Source of the DNA: a virus
IMG/VR virus record: IMGVR_UViG_3300017783_000229
Span: 1-22,630 of that record
DNA: 22,630 bases
Reading direction: 5' to 3' (one strand)
The notes beneath the pieces were generated by a model. It did no database searches, was not told the DNA's origin, and worked only from the letters and a program-made list of their open reading frames with translations. Both the position numbers and the translations under genes were made by a program. Positions within the stretch are counted from its first letter, which is position 1; every line of letters begins with the position of its first letter. This document shows positions 15,151-22,630 of this stretch, piece by piece.

Positions 15151-15849
15151 GTGGCAATCATTAATGGTTGGGGCAGAGGTACTTGGGGCCAACTTGAGTG
15201 GGGCGAAGGCGACCTTCCTGTCTCAGTCACTGGTGTTGCTGGAACGGGTGCCGCAGGTACAGTTACCGTCGATGCTGAAGCTAACGTCTCTGTTACCGGC
15301 GCTTCGGGAACGGGTGCAATTGGTTCGGTTACGGTCACCGCTGACGCAAACTCCTCCGTCACTGGTGTTGTTGGAACGGGCGCGGTTACAACAGTCACTG
15401 TTGCCGCTGCTGCAAATACGGCAGTTACAGGTGTTTCGGGAACGGGTGCAATCACTACTGTCACTGTGGATGCTGCGGCTAATGTTTCGGTTACAGGCGT
15501 TGAAAGTACAGGGGCAATCGGCACAGTTATCCCCGTATCAAATAATACCCTCGCTGTTACAGGCGTTGCGGGAACAGGCGCAATTGGCACAGTTACGCTT
15601 GCGCTCAACAACTATATCGATGTTGCAGGGGTACAAGGAACTGGTAATGTTGGTACGGTATCGACTCAAGCCAATGCCGATGTTGCTGTTATTGGGGTTA
15701 GTGGTACTGGAGAAATTTCTCCACCAAATATATGGGGTATTATTATCCCTGGTCAAACAACAAATTGGTCGGCTGTCGCAGACAGTCAAGACCCTACTTG
15801 GTCACCTGTTTCAGACAGTCAAGACCCTAATTGGGAAGAGGTAGCTTAA
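15151..15849 (+). CDS. Repeat protein of eight ~22-residue VTGVxGTGAIGTVTV units, probable tail structural
   Basis: Function not known; likely an elongated tail or fibre-attachment protein. The 232-residue protein starts at GTG (15151) with a short Gly/Trp head (INGWGRGTWGQLEWGEGD). Eight repeats of about 22 residues follow (residues 24-190, consensus V-x-VTGVxGTGAIGTVTVxA), a low-charge beta-repeat likely to stack or coil. The end has two copies of a Trp/DSQDP motif (NWSAVADSQDPTW, then SPVSDSQDPNW), encoded by an exact 18-base repeat (15779-15796 and 15812-15829). The ribosome site is weak (TAGGTT). Another frame shifted by 2 (GTG at 15149) also stays open to 15844, but its Leu/Arg/Gln-rich product looks like a shadow of the repeats. 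It abuts the first fibre gene directly, which suggests a partner of the fibre. Confidence 0.83.
   Translation: MAIINGWGRGTWGQLEWGEGDLPVSVTGVAGTGAAGTVTVDAEANVSVTGASGTGAIGSVTVTADANSSVTGVVGTGAVTTVTVAAAANTAVTGVSGTGAITTVTVDAAANVSVTGVESTGAIGTVIPVSNNTLAVTGVAGTGAIGTVTLALNNYIDVAGVQGTGNVGTVSTQANADVAVIGVSGTGEISPPNIWGIIIPGQTTNWSAVADSQDPTWSPVSDSQDPNWEEVA
15220..15720 (+). repeat. 66-base coding repeats, about 8 units
   Basis: Eight imperfect units near 66 bases each, encoding the VTGVxGTG repeats. Middle units share runs such as GGAACGGGTGCAAT, so recombination could change the copy number. Confidence 0.82.
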
Positions 15850-18800
15850 ATGGCAACTTACGTTAATGATTTACGCTTAAAAGAGATTGCCACAGGCGAT
15901 GAAAGCGGAACATGGGGTACAAGTACAAACACTAACTTAGAACTGATTGGTGAAGCTCTTGGGTACAATACTCAAGATTGTTTTAGTTCTGACGCGGATG
16001 CTACCACCACTGTAGCGGACGGTTCTTCAGATCCAGCGCGTGCGATGTATTTTAAAGTTACATCCTCCGCCACTTTGTCAGCAACACGCACACTGACTAT
16101 TGGGCCAAACACTATTTCTCGCGTAATGTTTATTGAGAACGCGACTACCGGCTCACAAAGTATTGCTATAAGCCAAGGTTCTGGCGCTAACGTCACTATT
16201 GCTACTGGAAAAACTGCTGTTGTTTATTTAGACGGTGCAGGTTCTGGCGCAGCAGTTGTTGATGCTATGTTAAAGGTTGATCCAGGCGTTACAGATACGC
16301 TTGCTGAAGTTCTTGTCGCAGGTAATACCTCTGGTGGAACGGGCCTTGTTATTTCATCTGGTGATGATTTAACGCTTACAGGCGCGTCTAGTAACGCTGT
16401 ATGGGATTCTTCTGCTAATGCTTTAGCGTTTGCGGATGCATCGAAAGCGGTGTTTGGTGCAGGTAATGATTTAGAAATATTTCACAATTCCAGTAACTCT
16501 ATAATTAACGACAACGGTACTGGCACATTACAGTTACAAACTGGTGGCGCAACCAAATTAGAAGTTACTTCTAGCGGAGTAACTGTTTCAGGAACGATAA
16601 CAGGTACGTTAGCTACTGCGGCACAAGCGAATGTTACAAGTGTAGGTACGCTGACTTCGCTGGCTGTTTCTGGCGACCTCACCATTGACACGAATACGCT
16701 AAAGGTAAATTCTACCACTAACCGCGTAGGTGTTCTTAACGCTTCCCCTGATGTATCTCTAGATGTTGGTTCAGCTACAGATGCGATACATATGCCTGTA
16801 GGAACTACTGCACAGCGTCCTACGGGCGCGGCGGGATACTTGCGATACAATAGCACCCTAGAGCAATTTGAAGGCTATACGGACGATTGGGGCCAGATTG
16901 GAGGCGGTGGCGGTTCTAATACATTTGCTACCAACAGCTTTACCGGCAACGGTTCTACAACTGCTTACGCGCTGTCTCAAGTAGTAACATCTGAAGACAA
17001 TTTATTAGTTTTTATAGAAGGTGTTTTTCAACAGCAAGCTGCGTATTCGATTGCTACGGCAAGCGGCACAACTACTTTAACTTTTGCTTCTGCGCCAGCT
17101 AATGGACGAAGTATTTTAATCTACTCAGTCGCGTCTGCTATCTCAGGTACTAATCTGAATAGCGATACGATGACGGGTGACGGATCAGATACTACTCTCA
17201 CGCTTTCTTTAGCACCTGTAAACGAAAACAACACACAGGTTTATATAGATGGTACTTACCAGCACAAAGACACCTACAGTATTTCTGGGACTACATTAAC
17301 CTTCAGCACTGCGCCACCCTTGGGGACGGCGGTTGAAGTAATGACGATGAATCAGTTGGATGTAAACACCCCTACAGATGGCAGTGTTACGTCCGCCAAG
17401 CTGTCTGGTGCTTTGGTTACGCCAAGCAGTTTAACCGTTACTGGTGATTTAATTACTACTACGTCAGGAACGTCTAACTTTGTAGCAGGTGTCAACGCAG
17501 GTAACTCCATAGCTTCTGGCGGCAACTATAACGTGGTTGTGGGCGATGAAGCGGGTACTGCAATTACTACGGGTGATGAAAGCGTAGCCGTAGGCTTTGA
17601 AGCTCTTATGACCGCTACATCTGGGTCTGAAAATGTTGGTGTTGGATATAGGGCGCTTAAATTAACTACTGGAAATAGTAATGTAGCGGTCGGTAAAAAC
17701 GCATTAGCCACAAACTCATCTGCGTCTAACAACACCGCAGTTGGTACAAGTGCTTTAACCGCAAACACCACAGGCGAAAGAAACATTGCTATTGGCACTA
17801 GTGCGTTAGATGCTAATACTACCGCAGATAGTAATATTTCAATTGGTGTATCGTCTCTTACTACAAACACAACAGGTGCTTCAAATGTAGCCATTGGGGA
17901 TCAGGCGCTTAGTGATAACACCACAGCCTCTAACAACACAGCAGTCGGTTATCACTCTTTACTCGCAAACACCACAGGTACTCAGAATGCTGCACTAGGT
18001 GCTTATGCTTTAGATGCTGCTACAACAGCCGATGGCAATACAGCAGTTGGATATTTTGGCCTTAGTGCAACTACTACAGGCGCAAATAATACGGCAGTAG
18101 GCAACCAAGCAGGGGCAGCAAACACCACAGGCGCTGAAAACGTATCAGTGGGAGCTGAAGCACTTGACGCAAATACTACCGGAGCTGAAAACGTAGCCGT
18201 TGGTTATAGTTCTTTATCCAACGCAACTACGGCTAGTTATAACACCGCAGTGGGTAAATCAGCTTTAGGCTCGACTACTACAGGGGATAACAACACCGCA
18301 GTGGGTAAATCAGCTTTAGGCGCAAACACCACAGGTAACTTAAATACTGCTCTTGGATTTGGGGCGTTAGGAGCAAACACAGTTGGCGATAGAAATATAG
18401 CTATTGGTGGTAATGCTTTAGCCAGCTTCAATCCCTCTAGTAACGCAGATACTTATAATGTAGCAATAGGTTTAAACGCAGGAATAGCAGTCACCACAGG
18501 CACTCAGAACACCCTCATTGGTGGTCTATCGGGTGATACTATTACTACTGGTGTTCAAAACACAATGATTGGATATAACACCGACACTACAGGTGCTGGT
18601 GGAGATAACAGGATTGGCATCGGAGTAAATTTAAGTCTTGACACAGGAAACGCAATAAAAATAGGTAATGGATCTACTTTTATTACTAACACTTGGGGTT
18701 CTAACGCTACTTGGTCACATAGCTCTGATGAAAGACTAAAAGAGAAAGTAGCAGATGATACTTTAGGCTTGTCGTTTATAAATGATTTAAGAACTGTAAC

Positions 18801-19104
18801 TTATAACTGGCGTTTACAAAAAGATATTCCCGAAGAAATACGCAGTGAGTATGAGTTTGAAAGGGACACCGAAGTAAAGCAGCATGGTTTAATTGCACAG
18901 GAAGTAAAAGCTGCTTTAGACAAGGCTGGTGTAGATACTTTCTTGGGCTGGTCAGAAGAAAAAGACGGAACTCAAATGATAAGTGAAGGTATGTTTGTTT
19001 TCCCATTAATAAAGGCCATCCAAGAACAAAGCGCACTGATCACAGCACAGGCAGCAGCAATAACTGACCTGACTACAAGACTAACCGCACTGGAGAACAA
19101 CTAA
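15850..19104 (+). CDS. Tail fibre 1 with YadA-like repeats and C-terminal Peptidase S74 chaperone domain
   Basis: Probable receptor-binding fibre, a trimer folded with help from its own C-terminal chaperone. Parts of the 1084-residue protein are as follows. (1) The N-terminal attachment domain is MATYVNDLRLKEIATGDESG, then WGTSTNTNLELIGEALGY, a start typical of such fibres. (2) Beta-rich shaft segments carry GNDLEIFHNSSN and TAQRPTGAAGYLRYNS. (3) A duplicated beta unit of about 70 residues spans about 357-500. (4) About 21 repeats of 17 residues (NTAVGxxALxANTTGxx) span about 561-927. (5) An S74 domain starts at S958-S959-D960-E-R-L-K, the conserved SD.R.K site where self-cleavage would release about 126 residues. 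(6) A terminal coiled helix, ITDLTTRLTALENN, closes the protein. The start ATG directly follows the previous stop. Cleavage is predicted from family knowledge, not shown. Confidence 0.9.
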   Translation: MATYVNDLRLKEIATGDESGTWGTSTNTNLELIGEALGYNTQDCFSSDADATTTVADGSSDPARAMYFKVTSSATLSATRTLTIGPNTISRVMFIENATTGSQSIAISQGSGANVTIATGKTAVVYLDGAGSGAAVVDAMLKVDPGVTDTLAEVLVAGNTSGGTGLVISSGDDLTLTGASSNAVWDSSANALAFADASKAVFGAGNDLEIFHNSSNSIINDNGTGTLQLQTGGATKLEVTSSGVTVSGTITGTLATAAQANVTSVGTLTSLAVSGDLTIDTNTLKVNSTTNRVGVLNASPDVSLDVGSATDAIHMPVGTTAQRPTGAAGYLRYNSTLEQFEGYTDDWGQIGGGGGSNTFATNSFTGNGSTTAYALSQVVTSEDNLLVFIEGVFQQQAAYSIATASGTTTLTFASAPANGRSILIYSVASAISGTNLNSDTMTGDGSDTTLTLSLAPVNENNTQVYIDGTYQHKDTYSISGTTLTFSTAPPLGTAVEVMTMNQLDVNTPTDGSVTSAKLSGALVTPSSLTVTGDLITTTSGTSNFVAGVNAGNSIASGGNYNVVVGDEAGTAITTGDESVAVGFEALMTATSGSENVGVGYRALKLTTGNSNVAVGKNALATNSSASNNTAVGTSALTANTTGERNIAIGTSALDANTTADSNISIGVSSLTTNTTGASNVAIGDQALSDNTTASNNTAVGYHSLLANTTGTQNAALGAYALDAATTADGNTAVGYFGLSATTTGANNTAVGNQAGAANTTGAENVSVGAEALDANTTGAENVAVGYSSLSNATTASYNTAVGKSALGSTTTGDNNTAVGKSALGANTTGNLNTALGFGALGANTVGDRNIAIGGNALASFNPSSNADTYNVAIGLNAGIAVTTGTQNTLIGGLSGDTITTGVQNTMIGYNTDTTGAGGDNRIGIGVNLSLDTGNAIKIGNGSTFITNTWGSNATWSHSSDERLKEKVADDTLGLSFINDLRTVTYNWRLQKDIPEEIRSEYEFERDTEVKQHGLIAQEVKAALDKAGVDTFLGWSEEKDGTQMISEGMFVFPLIKAIQEQSALITAQAAAITDLTTRLTALENN
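17530..18630 (+). repeat. 51-base (17-residue) YadA-head-like coding repeats in fibre 1, about 21 units
   Basis: Consensus N-[TV]-A-[VI]-G-x-x-A-L-x-x-N-T-T-G-x-x. Some units are nearly identical in DNA: a 30-base tract at 18241-18270 recurs exactly at 18292-18321, one period (51 bases) on. One unit of 21 residues precedes an AG unit and an NTLIGG unit, an order also seen in fibre 3. Confidence 0.88.
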
Positions 19105-19114
19105 TGGCTTTAAC
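19076..19114 (+). repeat. 39-base direct repeat, copy 1 (fibre 1 / fibre 2 junction)
   Basis: Matches 20338-20376 in 38 of 39 bases (one change at 19086). It encodes the end of one fibre (RLTALENN and stop) and the start of the next (MALT). It also holds the GGAG Shine-Dalgarno (19092-19095) of the downstream gene. Confidence 0.9.
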
Positions 19115-20366
19115 AGAAATCCCTATAGAACTGTCAAGTACTCCAAGTATTGTAGACGGAGGTAATGCTACTGCTATAACTATTGATAGTTCAGAAAATG
19201 TTGGTATTGGTGTCACAAATCCCGCTGACTACTACGCTAAAGACCTTGTAATCGGGGCGGCGGATGAAGGGGGTATTACTATTGAATCTGCCACTACTGA
19301 AAAAACCTATCTATTGTTTGCTGATGGTACGTCCGGTGATGCTAGATATAGAGGTTTTCTAGGGTATGACCACAGCATAGATGTTTTTAATGTATCGTCA
19401 AACGGGTACATAAACTTTCTTACAGGAGATACTGGCGCTAACGCAGAACGTATGCGCATAGACGCATCAGGGCGCGTGGGTATTGGGGCTACGCCTAGTG
19501 CTAATTGGTCAGGAAATGATGTTCTTCAAATGACCTACGGAGCTTTTACTAGCAGCAGTTCGTTTGGCGCGGCTGTCTCAACTAATATTGTTGCAACGGC
19601 TGCTGGATGGCCTACAAAATATCTTGCAACAGGTGCAGCATCTGCATATCTTCAAGCTGTTTCAGACGGAAGTCATCTTTTTTATACAGCAGCTAGTGGT
19701 TCGGCTGGAGCATCTGCACCATTATCAGAACGCGTGCGTATAAACGCAGCAGGTCAACTTTTAATAGGCACTGCAACAGGAGTGGCTACTGGAACTTTAG
19801 CCACTTCAGGATTGGAGGTTGTAGCTCCTTCAGGACAGGATGCTATTGCTACGCAGGTTTTGAACGGAGCAACTTGTTTTGGAGGTTCTGGCCCTACTAC
19901 TTCTTCTCAAACTTACCTTTTTGGGCAAATGGTTAACTCTAGTGGGTCTACGGTAGGGTCAATAGTAGTAAGTGCGAGTGCGACAGCCTACAACACATCA
20001 TCAGACTACCGCTTAAAAGAAAATGTAGTTGCTATATCAAATGCTACAGAACGTCTCAAGCAACTTAACCCTTCACGGTTTAACTTTATTGAAGATGCAG
20101 ATACTACTGTAGATGGCTTCCTAGCACATGAGGTACAGGACGTTGTACCAGAGGCAATCTCAGGCACTAAAGATGCAATGCGTGATGAGGAATATGAAGT
20201 TACTCCAGCAGTTTTAGATGATGATGGCAATGTAACTACTGAGGCTGTAATGGGTACTAGATCAGTACCAGACTACCAAGGCATAGACCAAAGCAAACTT
20301 GTGCCTCTGCTGGTAGCAACCATACAAGAACTTGAAGCAAGACTAACAGCACTGGAGAACAACTAA
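19104..20366 (+). CDS. Tail fibre 2 with C-terminal Peptidase S74 chaperone domain
   Basis: Second probable fibre or tip protein. The 420-residue protein starts MALTEIPIELSSTPSIVDGG, then has shaft-type motifs ENVGIGVTNPADYYAKDLVI, ERMRIDASGRVGIGATPSAN and RVRINAAGQLLIGTATG, typical of S74 fibres. Its variable part (about residues 130-270) has no YadA-type repeats, unlike both neighbours. The S74 domain begins at S299-S300-D301-Y-R-L-K (the SD.R.K site), continues with GFLAHEVQDVVPEAISG, and ends in the helix LVATIQELEARLTALENN. A cut at the site would release about 121 residues. It overlaps both neighbours (TAATG) and is bracketed by the 39-base repeat, so it behaves like a removable cassette. 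Confidence 0.88.
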   Translation: MALTEIPIELSSTPSIVDGGNATAITIDSSENVGIGVTNPADYYAKDLVIGAADEGGITIESATTEKTYLLFADGTSGDARYRGFLGYDHSIDVFNVSSNGYINFLTGDTGANAERMRIDASGRVGIGATPSANWSGNDVLQMTYGAFTSSSSFGAAVSTNIVATAAGWPTKYLATGAASAYLQAVSDGSHLFYTAASGSAGASAPLSERVRINAAGQLLIGTATGVATGTLATSGLEVVAPSGQDAIATQVLNGATCFGGSGPTTSSQTYLFGQMVNSSGSTVGSIVVSASATAYNTSSDYRLKENVVAISNATERLKQLNPSRFNFIEDADTTVDGFLAHEVQDVVPEAISGTKDAMRDEEYEVTPAVLDDDGNVTTEAVMGTRSVPDYQGIDQSKLVPLLVATIQELEARLTALENN

Positions 20367-20376
20367 TGGCTTTAAC
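20338..20376 (+). repeat. 39-base direct repeat, copy 2 (fibre 2 / fibre 3 junction)
   Basis: Partner of 19076-19114, 1262 bases downstream. It again joins RLTALENN-stop to MALT and carries GGAG upstream of the ATG at 20366. Confidence 0.9.
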
Positions 20377-22405
20377 TAAAGTTACAGGTGGCTTATTAGG
20401 CAACCTCCCCACAGGTACAGGTAACGTAGCAGTAGGTGATACTGCACTTGATAGTATTGCTTCTGGTGCTCAATACAACGTAGCCATTGGTAGTGCTGCG
20501 GGTACTGCAATTACTACGGGCGTTCGCAACACGCTCATTGGCAACGCAGCGGGTGATGCTTTAACAGATGCTGATTTTAACGTAGCTATTGGTTATAACA
20601 CACTTACAGCAGACACTTTAGGCAGTGGTTCAGTAGGGGTGGGGTATAAAGCTCTTACCGCACAAAACTTTACTTCGGCTACAGATGCTTACAACACAGC
20701 AGTGGGCCATGTAGCAGGAGCATCAATCACCACAGGCACACTCAACACATTCATTGGTGGTCTTGCAGGTGATGCTACAACAACAGCAAACAACGTCACA
20801 GCAGTGGGTGCTAACGCTTTAACCGCAAACACCACAGGCGAAAGGCTTACTGCGATAGGTCAATCAGCATTAGCCGCTAACACTACTGCGGCCTATAACG
20901 TAGCCGTAGGAGACAGGGCATTACTAACAAATACTGGTTCAGCAAATAACGTAGCCGTAGGTGCTAATGCTCTTTATACCTTTAATGTTGCAAGTGGCGA
21001 TGGCTACAATGTAGCAGTGGGTAAAAACGCAGGTTTTGCAGTCACCACGGGCATTCAGAACACTCTCATCGGTGGTGAATGTGGTGACGCTCTTACAGAT
21101 GCTGACTATAATGTTGCCGTGGGCTATAGAGCTTTAGGCGCTGACACTAAAGGAAATCGGTCAGTAGCTGTAGGCAGATCTGCACTAGCAAATCAGAATC
21201 AAACTACGAGCACAAATACAAATAATGTAGCAGTAGGTTATGCCGCAGGAGCAAATGTCACCACGGGCATTGAAAACACCTTGATTGGTGGTGAAGCGGG
21301 TGATGCGATTACAACTGGATCATCTAACGTGGCGGTAGGACAAGGCTCATTAGACGCTAACACAACCGCTAATAACAACACCGCAGTTGGACATGACTCT
21401 ATGAAGTCTAATACAACCGGCGCTGAAAACGTAGCAGTTGGTAAAGGTGCTTTGAATGCTAACACCACCGCATCTAGCAACACAGCAGTTGGTAGGAGTG
21501 CTTTACTGGCAAACACCACAGGCATTCAAAACACTGCGGTAGGCTTTAATGCAGGTGATGCAAGTACTACAACTAATAACAACACATCACTAGGTTATTT
21601 CGCTTTAAGTGCGGCTTGTGGAAATCAAAACACTGCTTTAGGTTCTCAATCTCTTTCTAACACCAGCGCAGCTAACAACACAGCAGTTGGTTATGCGGCA
21701 GGTTTTACACTTACTACTGGCGCTGAAAACACCATTGTTGGGGCAGGCGCGGGAGGAATTACTACAGGAAGTCAAAATGTCGCAATTGGGTATCTACCGA
21801 TGGGAGGAGCGACTACTACTGGTAGTACTAATACTACCATGGGTTTTGCGGGACTTTATGAAATTACCAGTGGCGGCAACAATACGGCTATCGGCTACAA
21901 CGCGGGTAGATCCACTAGCCCCAGTGGGAGCATTACCACTGGAAGTAATACCATTGTTTTAGGCAACAACAATATTTCTGCCGCTTATATAAAAGTAGCT
22001 TGGACGGTGACTTCCGATGCTCGTGATAAAACTGATTTTACTCCGCTTGATTTAGGTTTAGATTTTGTTAAAGAGTTGAAGCCTATAACGTACAAGTGGG
22101 ATATGCGTAGTAATTATGGGGATAGCTCCGCTGAAGATTATGATTTAGATGCACAAACTCCAGACGGCACTCACAAAGAAGATTGGTTGGACGTAGGTTT
22201 TAAAGCTCAAGAAGTAGAAGCCCTTGAAATTGCCGCAGGTTACACAAGAGAAAACAAGACTAATCTAGTATCTTCCCTGACAGGAGACGGAAAGCAGATG
22301 GGATTAAAGTACGAGAAGTTTGTGCCAATCCTTGTCAAAGCTATCCAAGAGCAACAAACCTTAATTGAATCACTAACAGACCGCATAGCGGCACTAGAAG
22401 GATAA
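20366..22405 (+). CDS. Tail fibre 3, mostly YadA-like repeats, with C-terminal Peptidase S74 chaperone domain
   Basis: Third probable fibre. The 679-residue protein has only a short start (MALTKVTGGLLGNLPTGTG), then about 29 repeats of about 17 residues (N-x-A-V-G-x-x-A-L/G...) over residues 20-538. These include AG units (NVAVGKNAGFAVTTG) and NTLIGG units that recur in a 177-residue superperiod. The S74 domain starts at S550-D551-A-R-D-K, keeping S, D, R and K of the conserved site. It then reads FVKELKPITYKWDM, DVGFKAQEVEALEIAAGY, a conserved-looking KYEKFVPILVKAIQEQ and the end helix SLTDRIAALEG. A cut would release about 130 residues. It lacks the virion-attachment N-terminus of fibre 1, so it may attach to fibre 1 or 2 or be an alternative tip. 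Confidence 0.88.
   Translation: MALTKVTGGLLGNLPTGTGNVAVGDTALDSIASGAQYNVAIGSAAGTAITTGVRNTLIGNAAGDALTDADFNVAIGYNTLTADTLGSGSVGVGYKALTAQNFTSATDAYNTAVGHVAGASITTGTLNTFIGGLAGDATTTANNVTAVGANALTANTTGERLTAIGQSALAANTTAAYNVAVGDRALLTNTGSANNVAVGANALYTFNVASGDGYNVAVGKNAGFAVTTGIQNTLIGGECGDALTDADYNVAVGYRALGADTKGNRSVAVGRSALANQNQTTSTNTNNVAVGYAAGANVTTGIENTLIGGEAGDAITTGSSNVAVGQGSLDANTTANNNTAVGHDSMKSNTTGAENVAVGKGALNANTTASSNTAVGRSALLANTTGIQNTAVGFNAGDASTTTNNNTSLGYFALSAACGNQNTALGSQSLSNTSAANNTAVGYAAGFTLTTGAENTIVGAGAGGITTGSQNVAIGYLPMGGATTTGSTNTTMGFAGLYEITSGGNNTAIGYNAGRSTSPSGSITTGSNTIVLGNNNISAAYIKVAWTVTSDARDKTDFTPLDLGLDFVKELKPITYKWDMRSNYGDSSAEDYDLDAQTPDGTHKEDWLDVGFKAQEVEALEIAAGYTRENKTNLVSSLTGDGKQMGLKYEKFVPILVKAIQEQQTLIESLTDRIAALEG
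20423..21979 (+). repeat. 51-base YadA-like coding repeats in fibre 3, about 29 units, with 531-base superperiod
   Basis: Unit consensus as in fibre 1. AG units at 20477 and 21008, and again at 20693 and 21224, are both exactly 531 bases apart. The 21-residue long unit lies at the same place in each block, showing an older block duplication. Confidence 0.87.
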
Positions 22406-22409
22406 AACA

Positions 22410-22630
22410 ATGACTAGAGAAGCAGATCAAATCGCACAGGACTACTCAGCAATGGGTGACAGTGTAGACCTAATCACCGCAGTTATTGCGGGCGACCAAA
22501 TGGCTGATGAGTCAGCAGAAGATCGCCAAGACTGTGTAGACCGTAACACCCAGCACCTAGAGCTTATGGTAGCTAAAGATGATTGGGGTAGTGAATCTAT
22601 GACCGCAATTAACGCAGCTATTACAGCAGG
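22410..22630 (+). CDS. Start of a small acidic protein, function unknown (3' truncated by window)
   Basis: The frame is open to the window end, 73 complete residues. It starts MTREADQIAQDYSAMGDSVD, continues LITAVIAGDQMADESAEDRQ and ends in view with HLELMVAKDDWGSESMTAIN. It is acidic and probably helical, with no hydrophobic segment. AAGGA at 22397-22401 lies 8 bases before the ATG. Proteins with the sequence ...DYSAMGDSVDLI..IIAGDQMADESAEDRQD are ones I recall just after tail-fibre genes in marine phages, with unknown function. A fibre chaperone or a small virion protein is possible. It cannot be judged further without the missing 3' end. Confidence 0.8.
   Translation, partial: MTREADQIAQDYSAMGDSVDLITAVIAGDQMADESAEDRQDCVDRNTQHLELMVAKDDWGSESMTAINAAITA

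Follow-up and report, generated by a model that had tools for sequence, protein, structure and literature searches.

Tail-fibre shuffling is well known among phages, while the physical join is seldom identified. The closest known locus is that of the T5-like E. coli phages DT57C and DT571/2, whose ltfA and ltfB genes are described as tandem fibre genes that each terminate in an S74 (pfam13884) self-cleaving chaperone, with direct repeats between them (PMC4728585). In that account, laboratory recombination between the repeats deleted DNA, changed the host range and fused both genes (PMC4728585). In the Alteromonas phages A5, V22 and P24, which belong to different marine families, fibre and chaperone modules are held in common via horizontal transfer, as set out in the account of these modules (PMC10579305). 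Receptor-binding protein domain shuffling likewise combines conserved attachment ends with exchanged tips in distant phages (PMC10684548), and in lambdoid mosaicism, relaxed homologous recombination can act on short or diverged homology (PMC2327257).

Here, we analyse a record of 22,630 bases from an uncultured virus (the window, by which we mean this whole stretch), which contains a terminase, an SU10-type portal and a capsid gene. By portal protein, the nearest isolates are podovirus-like phages of Pelagibacter and Roseobacter (42-52% identity), and a marine bacterium is therefore the likely host. Three consecutive fibre genes occupy the end of the window, and their two junctions carry copies of a 39-base repeat, which we call the seam:

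15850..19104, + strand: fibre gene 1, 1084 aa; N-terminal virion-side part (MATYVNDLRLKE..), DUF4183, C-terminal S74; last residues ITDLTTRLTALENN
19076..19114, + strand: seam copy 1, 39 bp; fibre 1 end, embedded GGAG, TAATG overlap and fibre 2 start
19092..19095, + strand: predicted GGAG ribosome site in the Leu-Glu codons of fibre 1, 8 nt 5' of the fibre 2 ATG; predicted unstructured
19104..20366, + strand: fibre gene 2, the bracketed cassette, 420 aa; start type MALTEIPIELSSTP, C-terminal S74; last residues ATIQELEARLTALENN
20338..20376, + strand: seam copy 2, 39 bp; fibre 2 end, embedded GGAG, TAATG overlap and fibre 3 start
20354..20357, + strand: predicted GGAG ribosome site in the Leu-Glu codons of fibre 2, 8 nt 5' of the fibre 3 ATG
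20366..22405, + strand: fibre gene 3, 679 aa; start type MALTKVTGGLLGNLP, tip of 17-aa repeats, C-terminal S74; ends RIAALEG, without a seam
22410..22628, + strand: small gene 3' of the fibres (MTREADQIAQDYSAMGD..), truncated by the window end; flank conserved in four relatives (G001, L002, L003 and L015)

The window shares with the DT57C locus the tandem arrangement of S74 fibre genes and the direct repeats; we regard the seam as a variation on known tail-fibre shuffling, close in kind to ltfA/ltfB. The two loci differ in that the DT57C repeats are described as lying inside the genes, such that deletion fuses them, whereas the window repeat lies at the junctions, where loss of the middle gene would leave both neighbours and the ribosome site intact; the text on ltfA and ltfB describes no embedded ribosome site (PMC4728585). 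The window also resembles the Alteromonas phages in pointing to marine host-recognition modules moved between phages, although in the account of those modules the chaperone is a separate gene, the whole module is transferred, and no conserved nucleotide seam is described (PMC10579305). Receptor-binding protein shuffling concerns domains within proteins (PMC10684548), whereas the conserved join in the window also extends over a stop codon, a ribosome site and a start codon, and the lambdoid case is one of general genome mosaicism (PMC2327257), whereas that of the window is a specific gene seam. A site-specific fibre switch of the Mu Gin type involves inverted sites on either side of the segment and a dedicated recombinase; the window copies are instead direct, and no recombinase gene is seen in the incomplete window. 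A limited search of the open-access literature did not find an embedded ribosome site as a common connector.

The two seam copies are direct, match at 38/39 bases and are spaced 1262 apart, flanking fibre gene 2. Their sequence is CAAGACTAAC[C/A]GCACTGGAGAACAACTAATGGCTTTAAC, with the sole mismatch at 19086/20348. The original prediction had described just such a repeat around fibre 2, and we confirm both its identity and its coordinates, as well as the proposed make-up of each copy: RLTALENN, the C-terminus of both fibre 1 and fibre 2, with its stop codon, the GGAG site, and MALT, the first residues of fibres 2 and 3. At both junctions, stop and start overlap as TAATG. When the amino acids are held fixed and codons are drawn at the usage of the window, a 38/39 match arises in 6e-5 of simulations, and the probability of a chance match is negligible. 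The repeat extends only weakly beyond the seam (73% over 92 nt); the two fibre starts diverge past MALT, which limits the repeat to 39 bases. In RNA folding, neither copy forms a stable structure or folds better than its shuffles, and a structured RNA switch at the seam was rejected on this ground. Predicted unfolded RNA fits with an accessible ribosome site.

All three fibres end in a Peptidase_S74 domain (PF13884), with E-values of 4e-11, 1e-9 and 3e-9 and scores of 43.3, 38.6 and 37.4 for fibres 1, 2 and 3, all above the gathering score of 22. The serine cleavage motif SD.R.K stands near the start of the domain in the three translations, as SSDERLK, SSDYRLK and TSDARDK, respectively. Fibre 2 gave no sequence match to solved structures. 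In characterised fibres, namely K1F and T5-like proteins, S74 domains are cleaved off; by analogy, we suggest that S74 release would free the seam codons from a role in the mature virion.

Comparison with other viral contigs shows that the seam is composed of two separately shared parts. The upstream part consists of the final codons of the S74 gene, in which Leu-Glu (ctGGAG) also serves as ribosome site for the following gene at overlaps, while the downstream part is a leader and start, GGAGAAYAACTAATGGC, carried by the downstream gene. An exact 37-base seam occurs in 5 other viral contigs, each with different genes joined, and a codon-degenerate scan finds the junction in 42 stretches, nearly all of which pair an S74 gene end with a new gene. 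A scan demanding LENN and MALT yields a biased sample of junctions; to offset this bias, we added start-type scans, which leave the upstream side free, and a gene-end scan, in which the downstream side is left unselected. In the start-type scans, GGAGAAYAACTAATGGC precedes downstream start types in approximately 41/88 cases. The leader GGAGAAYAACTA is found behind S74 ends and also behind non-S74 gene ends, such as ..FIISAI-stop, and therefore belongs to the downstream gene. Where such a leader lands behind an S74 gene, the S74 gene would read through into it and end in LENN.

The gene-end scan recovered at least 99 S74 ends of one type. Among the matches listed, the last codons contain the ribosome site in 42/50 junctions that overlap or are near-adjacent (<=6 nt) versus 2/47 spaced junctions (Fisher p 9e-17), and the Glu codon is GAG in 43/50 close junctions versus GAA in 43/47 spaced ones. 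S74 genes with a spaced next gene end in ..LESN, LENA or LES, with the GAA codon and without the ribosome site. Because site and GAG codon track the proximity of the next start, these patterns are strong evidence for selection on the embedded GGAG as a ribosome site, with a probable function in translation. The same design with a different sequence is present in the isolates HTVC100P, MEP301 and MEP401 and is lacking in Bylgja and CRP-7, where the next gene is spaced. The exact seam is absent from 84,980 GTDB genomes, and a 42-base seam has partial matches in isolated phages at chance level only.

Small genes beginning MATWTISTLER or similar are also attached through this S74 end and overlap, as in L039 (6350), L062 (7945), L149, L266 and L295, and the seam is therefore not confined to fibre-fibre joins. 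Behind fibre genes without S74, four contigs (G001, L031, L129 and L152) have small genes ending ..AAYNAAQAAQGV or ..RTERDAGE, which are perhaps separate chaperones in place of the built-in one.

Natural variants of the junction occur in named relatives. The close relative G001 has 93% identity to the middle of fibre 1, after which islands of similarity at 19046-19373 (90%), 20366-20520 (95%) and 22395-22630 (96%) alternate with tips that for the most part have no detectable similarity. Two of these islands lie at the fibre junctions:

19046..19373, + strand: conserved island, 90% in G001; fibre 1 end, seam and fibre 2 start, with unrelated DNA on either side
20366..20520, + strand: conserved start region of fibre 3, from the ATG; 95% in G001, and 97.5% over 364 nt in L129; upstream DNA unrelated

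In L003 and L015, which are 95% identical over 5.6 kb and differ in their fibre tips while agreeing in the seam and next start, fibre 1 leads directly to the fibre 3 start with no fibre 2 between, and a gene of the fibre 2 type lies further on. L008 has a 1076-nt cassette flanked by two seam copies; L037 (93% identical to L008 upstream) lacks it, and the same gene end leads to a start 96% identical to the post-cassette start. These two contigs differ in the last fibre tip as well, and no pair among the compared relatives differs by the cassette only. Upstream, L033 and L039 agree at 97% over 3.2 kb; they have a common gene end (91%) and then, at the seam, continue into different fibre starts.

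In L002, an end of the fibre 1 type runs directly into the fibre 3 start, and the downstream gene is the same (89%). From CAAGACTAAC onward the L002 junction equals seam copy 2 with one difference in approximately 130 nt and has the copy 2 base at the variable site, while the DNA upstream resembles the fibre 1 end. This form is consistent with a crossover within the repeat and falls short of proof, as the 83% identity on the left denotes a different strain and the contig begins only 118 nt before the fibre 3 ATG overlap. Several further contigs have two leader copies around one fibre gene. As expected of a tandem fibre locus of the DT57C type that changes by recombination, loci with fewer or other fibres at the junction are present among the relatives (L002, L003, L015, L008/L037 and G001). 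Relatives, in which the original prediction had proposed to look for different genes between the same repeats, have different genes on both sides of the seam. Its broader suggestion of modular exchange stands insofar as reading frames and ribosome site are kept and relatives have different genes, no fibre 2 or deletion-like junctions. Relatives do not all carry the same single fibre 2, nor do conserved S74 codons suffice to account for the repeat, given the LESN, LENA or LES ends with GAA at spaced junctions.

Across 39 junctions, 10 gene-end types and 8 gene-start types appear in 23 combinations, with 15 four-gamete sets. Pairwise distances correlate at 0.39 and 0.29 within the two sides of the seam and at 0.05 across it (permutation p 0.28). 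For 428 pairs with a common start type, the commonest upstream break points are the GGAG, at which similarity ends exactly in 140, and the ATG, in 67; downstream similarity is mostly lost after 75-125 nt. These breakpoints suggest that the usual exchange anchor is the leader plus start region, about 90-140 nt, which is larger than the 39 bases. Exchange at the seam itself, as originally proposed, is retained, while the anchor would normally add the first 75-125 nt of the next gene; likewise, the repeat is a junction of fibre cassettes at fibre-fibre joins, with the same ends serving small non-fibre genes as well. Exchange inside start regions likewise varies the fibre tips, and the seam is therefore one crossover zone among others. 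Modular fibre exchange at the seam over evolutionary time is well supported by these comparisons. Neighbourhood scans with fibre 1 and with the upstream gene return mostly single-fibre loci without a seam, and hence the three-fibre seam layout is a minority arrangement.

In our view, the repeat is probably a conserved seam at which interchangeable tail-fibre cassettes meet. A cassette would be a fibre gene whose S74 chaperone holds the ribosome site of the next gene in its last codons, joined by the TAATG overlap. The leader and first part of the fibre genes recur in many marine phages, unlike the tips between them, and homologous recombination in the seam and adjoining start region, by phage or host functions, could replace, add or remove a tip together with its own chaperone. 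Exchange at the seam would leave both reading frames and the translation signal unbroken and would be expected to alter host range. A chaperone end, a ribosome site and the beginning of the following fibre coincide in this one short sequence, whose two sides assort almost independently in marine phages. The seam is a concrete, searchable marker of fibre cassettes in metagenomes; with it, one could count how often fibres are gained and lost in natural populations and test directly how phages maintain translation during the exchange of host-recognition genes. A more far-reaching version, which we put forward tentatively and regard as possible rather than likely, is that the seam is a selected standard connector, tolerated by the released S74 end, in which one short sequence ends any fibre, starts the next and anchors recombination; fibre number and type would then be shuffled across unrelated marine lineages, and junction variants would coexist in one population.

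The main competing explanation is constraint alone, in which a coiled-coil end, a ribosome site 8 nt from the ATG and the TAATG overlap would fix the sequence with no recombination between copies. Indeed, 47/47 seam junctions carry the GGAG, whereas the first Asn codon varies freely (26 C, 21 T), the ribosome site is retained only with a close next start, and HTVC100P, MEP301 and MEP401 arrive at this design with other sequence. Constraint does not, however, predict that Arg-Leu-Thr-Ala and Ala-Leu-Thr are encoded by the same codons (6e-5 at the codon usage of the window), the breakpoints at GGAG and ATG, or the independent assortment of the seam sides, and it is further weakened by the four-gamete sets; we judge it unlikely as a full account. 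What it does explain qualifies the reading of the repeat as a recombination site: exchange is upheld, but selection for the embedded ribosome site accounts for part of the identity between the copies. Another rival is that one fibre gene was recently duplicated in tandem and that the repeat is what is left of the duplicated ends, which would agree with three S74 fibre genes in a row and with the weak similarity beyond the seam (73% over 92 nt). We think this very improbable, as fibres 2 and 3 differ in start type, have unrelated tips and fall in different PHROG sets, and other phages carry separate relatives of each start type.

Contig ends bear on a programmed switch, in which a site-specific recombinase acting on the direct repeat would turn fibre 2 on and off. 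For 65 fibre starts in complete contigs, a contig end lies <=400 nt away in 23, versus 6.6 expected, and the L001 contig terminates one base beyond the seam. Such clustering is what branching populations would give, and the direct repeat does flank a host-range gene. As a sign of branching assemblies of coexisting variants, however, the clustering is only suggestive, because start regions repeated within one genome have the same effect and contig ends cluster wherever they repeat. The repeat moreover consists of coding sequence and a ribosome site and lacks palindromic arms, many genes are joined by this seam, and no recombinase gene is seen within the incomplete 22.6-kb record; there is accordingly little reason to believe in a switch. 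A metagenome assembly chimera is a natural concern for an uncultured record, as assemblers can be misled by short repeats, but it has next to no plausibility here: the seam recurs in contigs of many independent metagenomes, other contigs hold two seam copies around a gene, and the embedded ribosome site is present in isolates too. Fibre starts are likely a general break point of viral assemblies.

Outside the seam, the tips of fibre 1 (17540-18640) and fibre 3 (20400-21960) are built of 51-nt (17-aa) repeats of the form NTAVGxxALxANTTG, the copy number of which may vary by recombination; fibre 2 is without these repeats. The gene 5' of fibre 1 (15151-15846) contains repeats of 66 nt (22 aa), and a long overlapping frame stays open across the same region.
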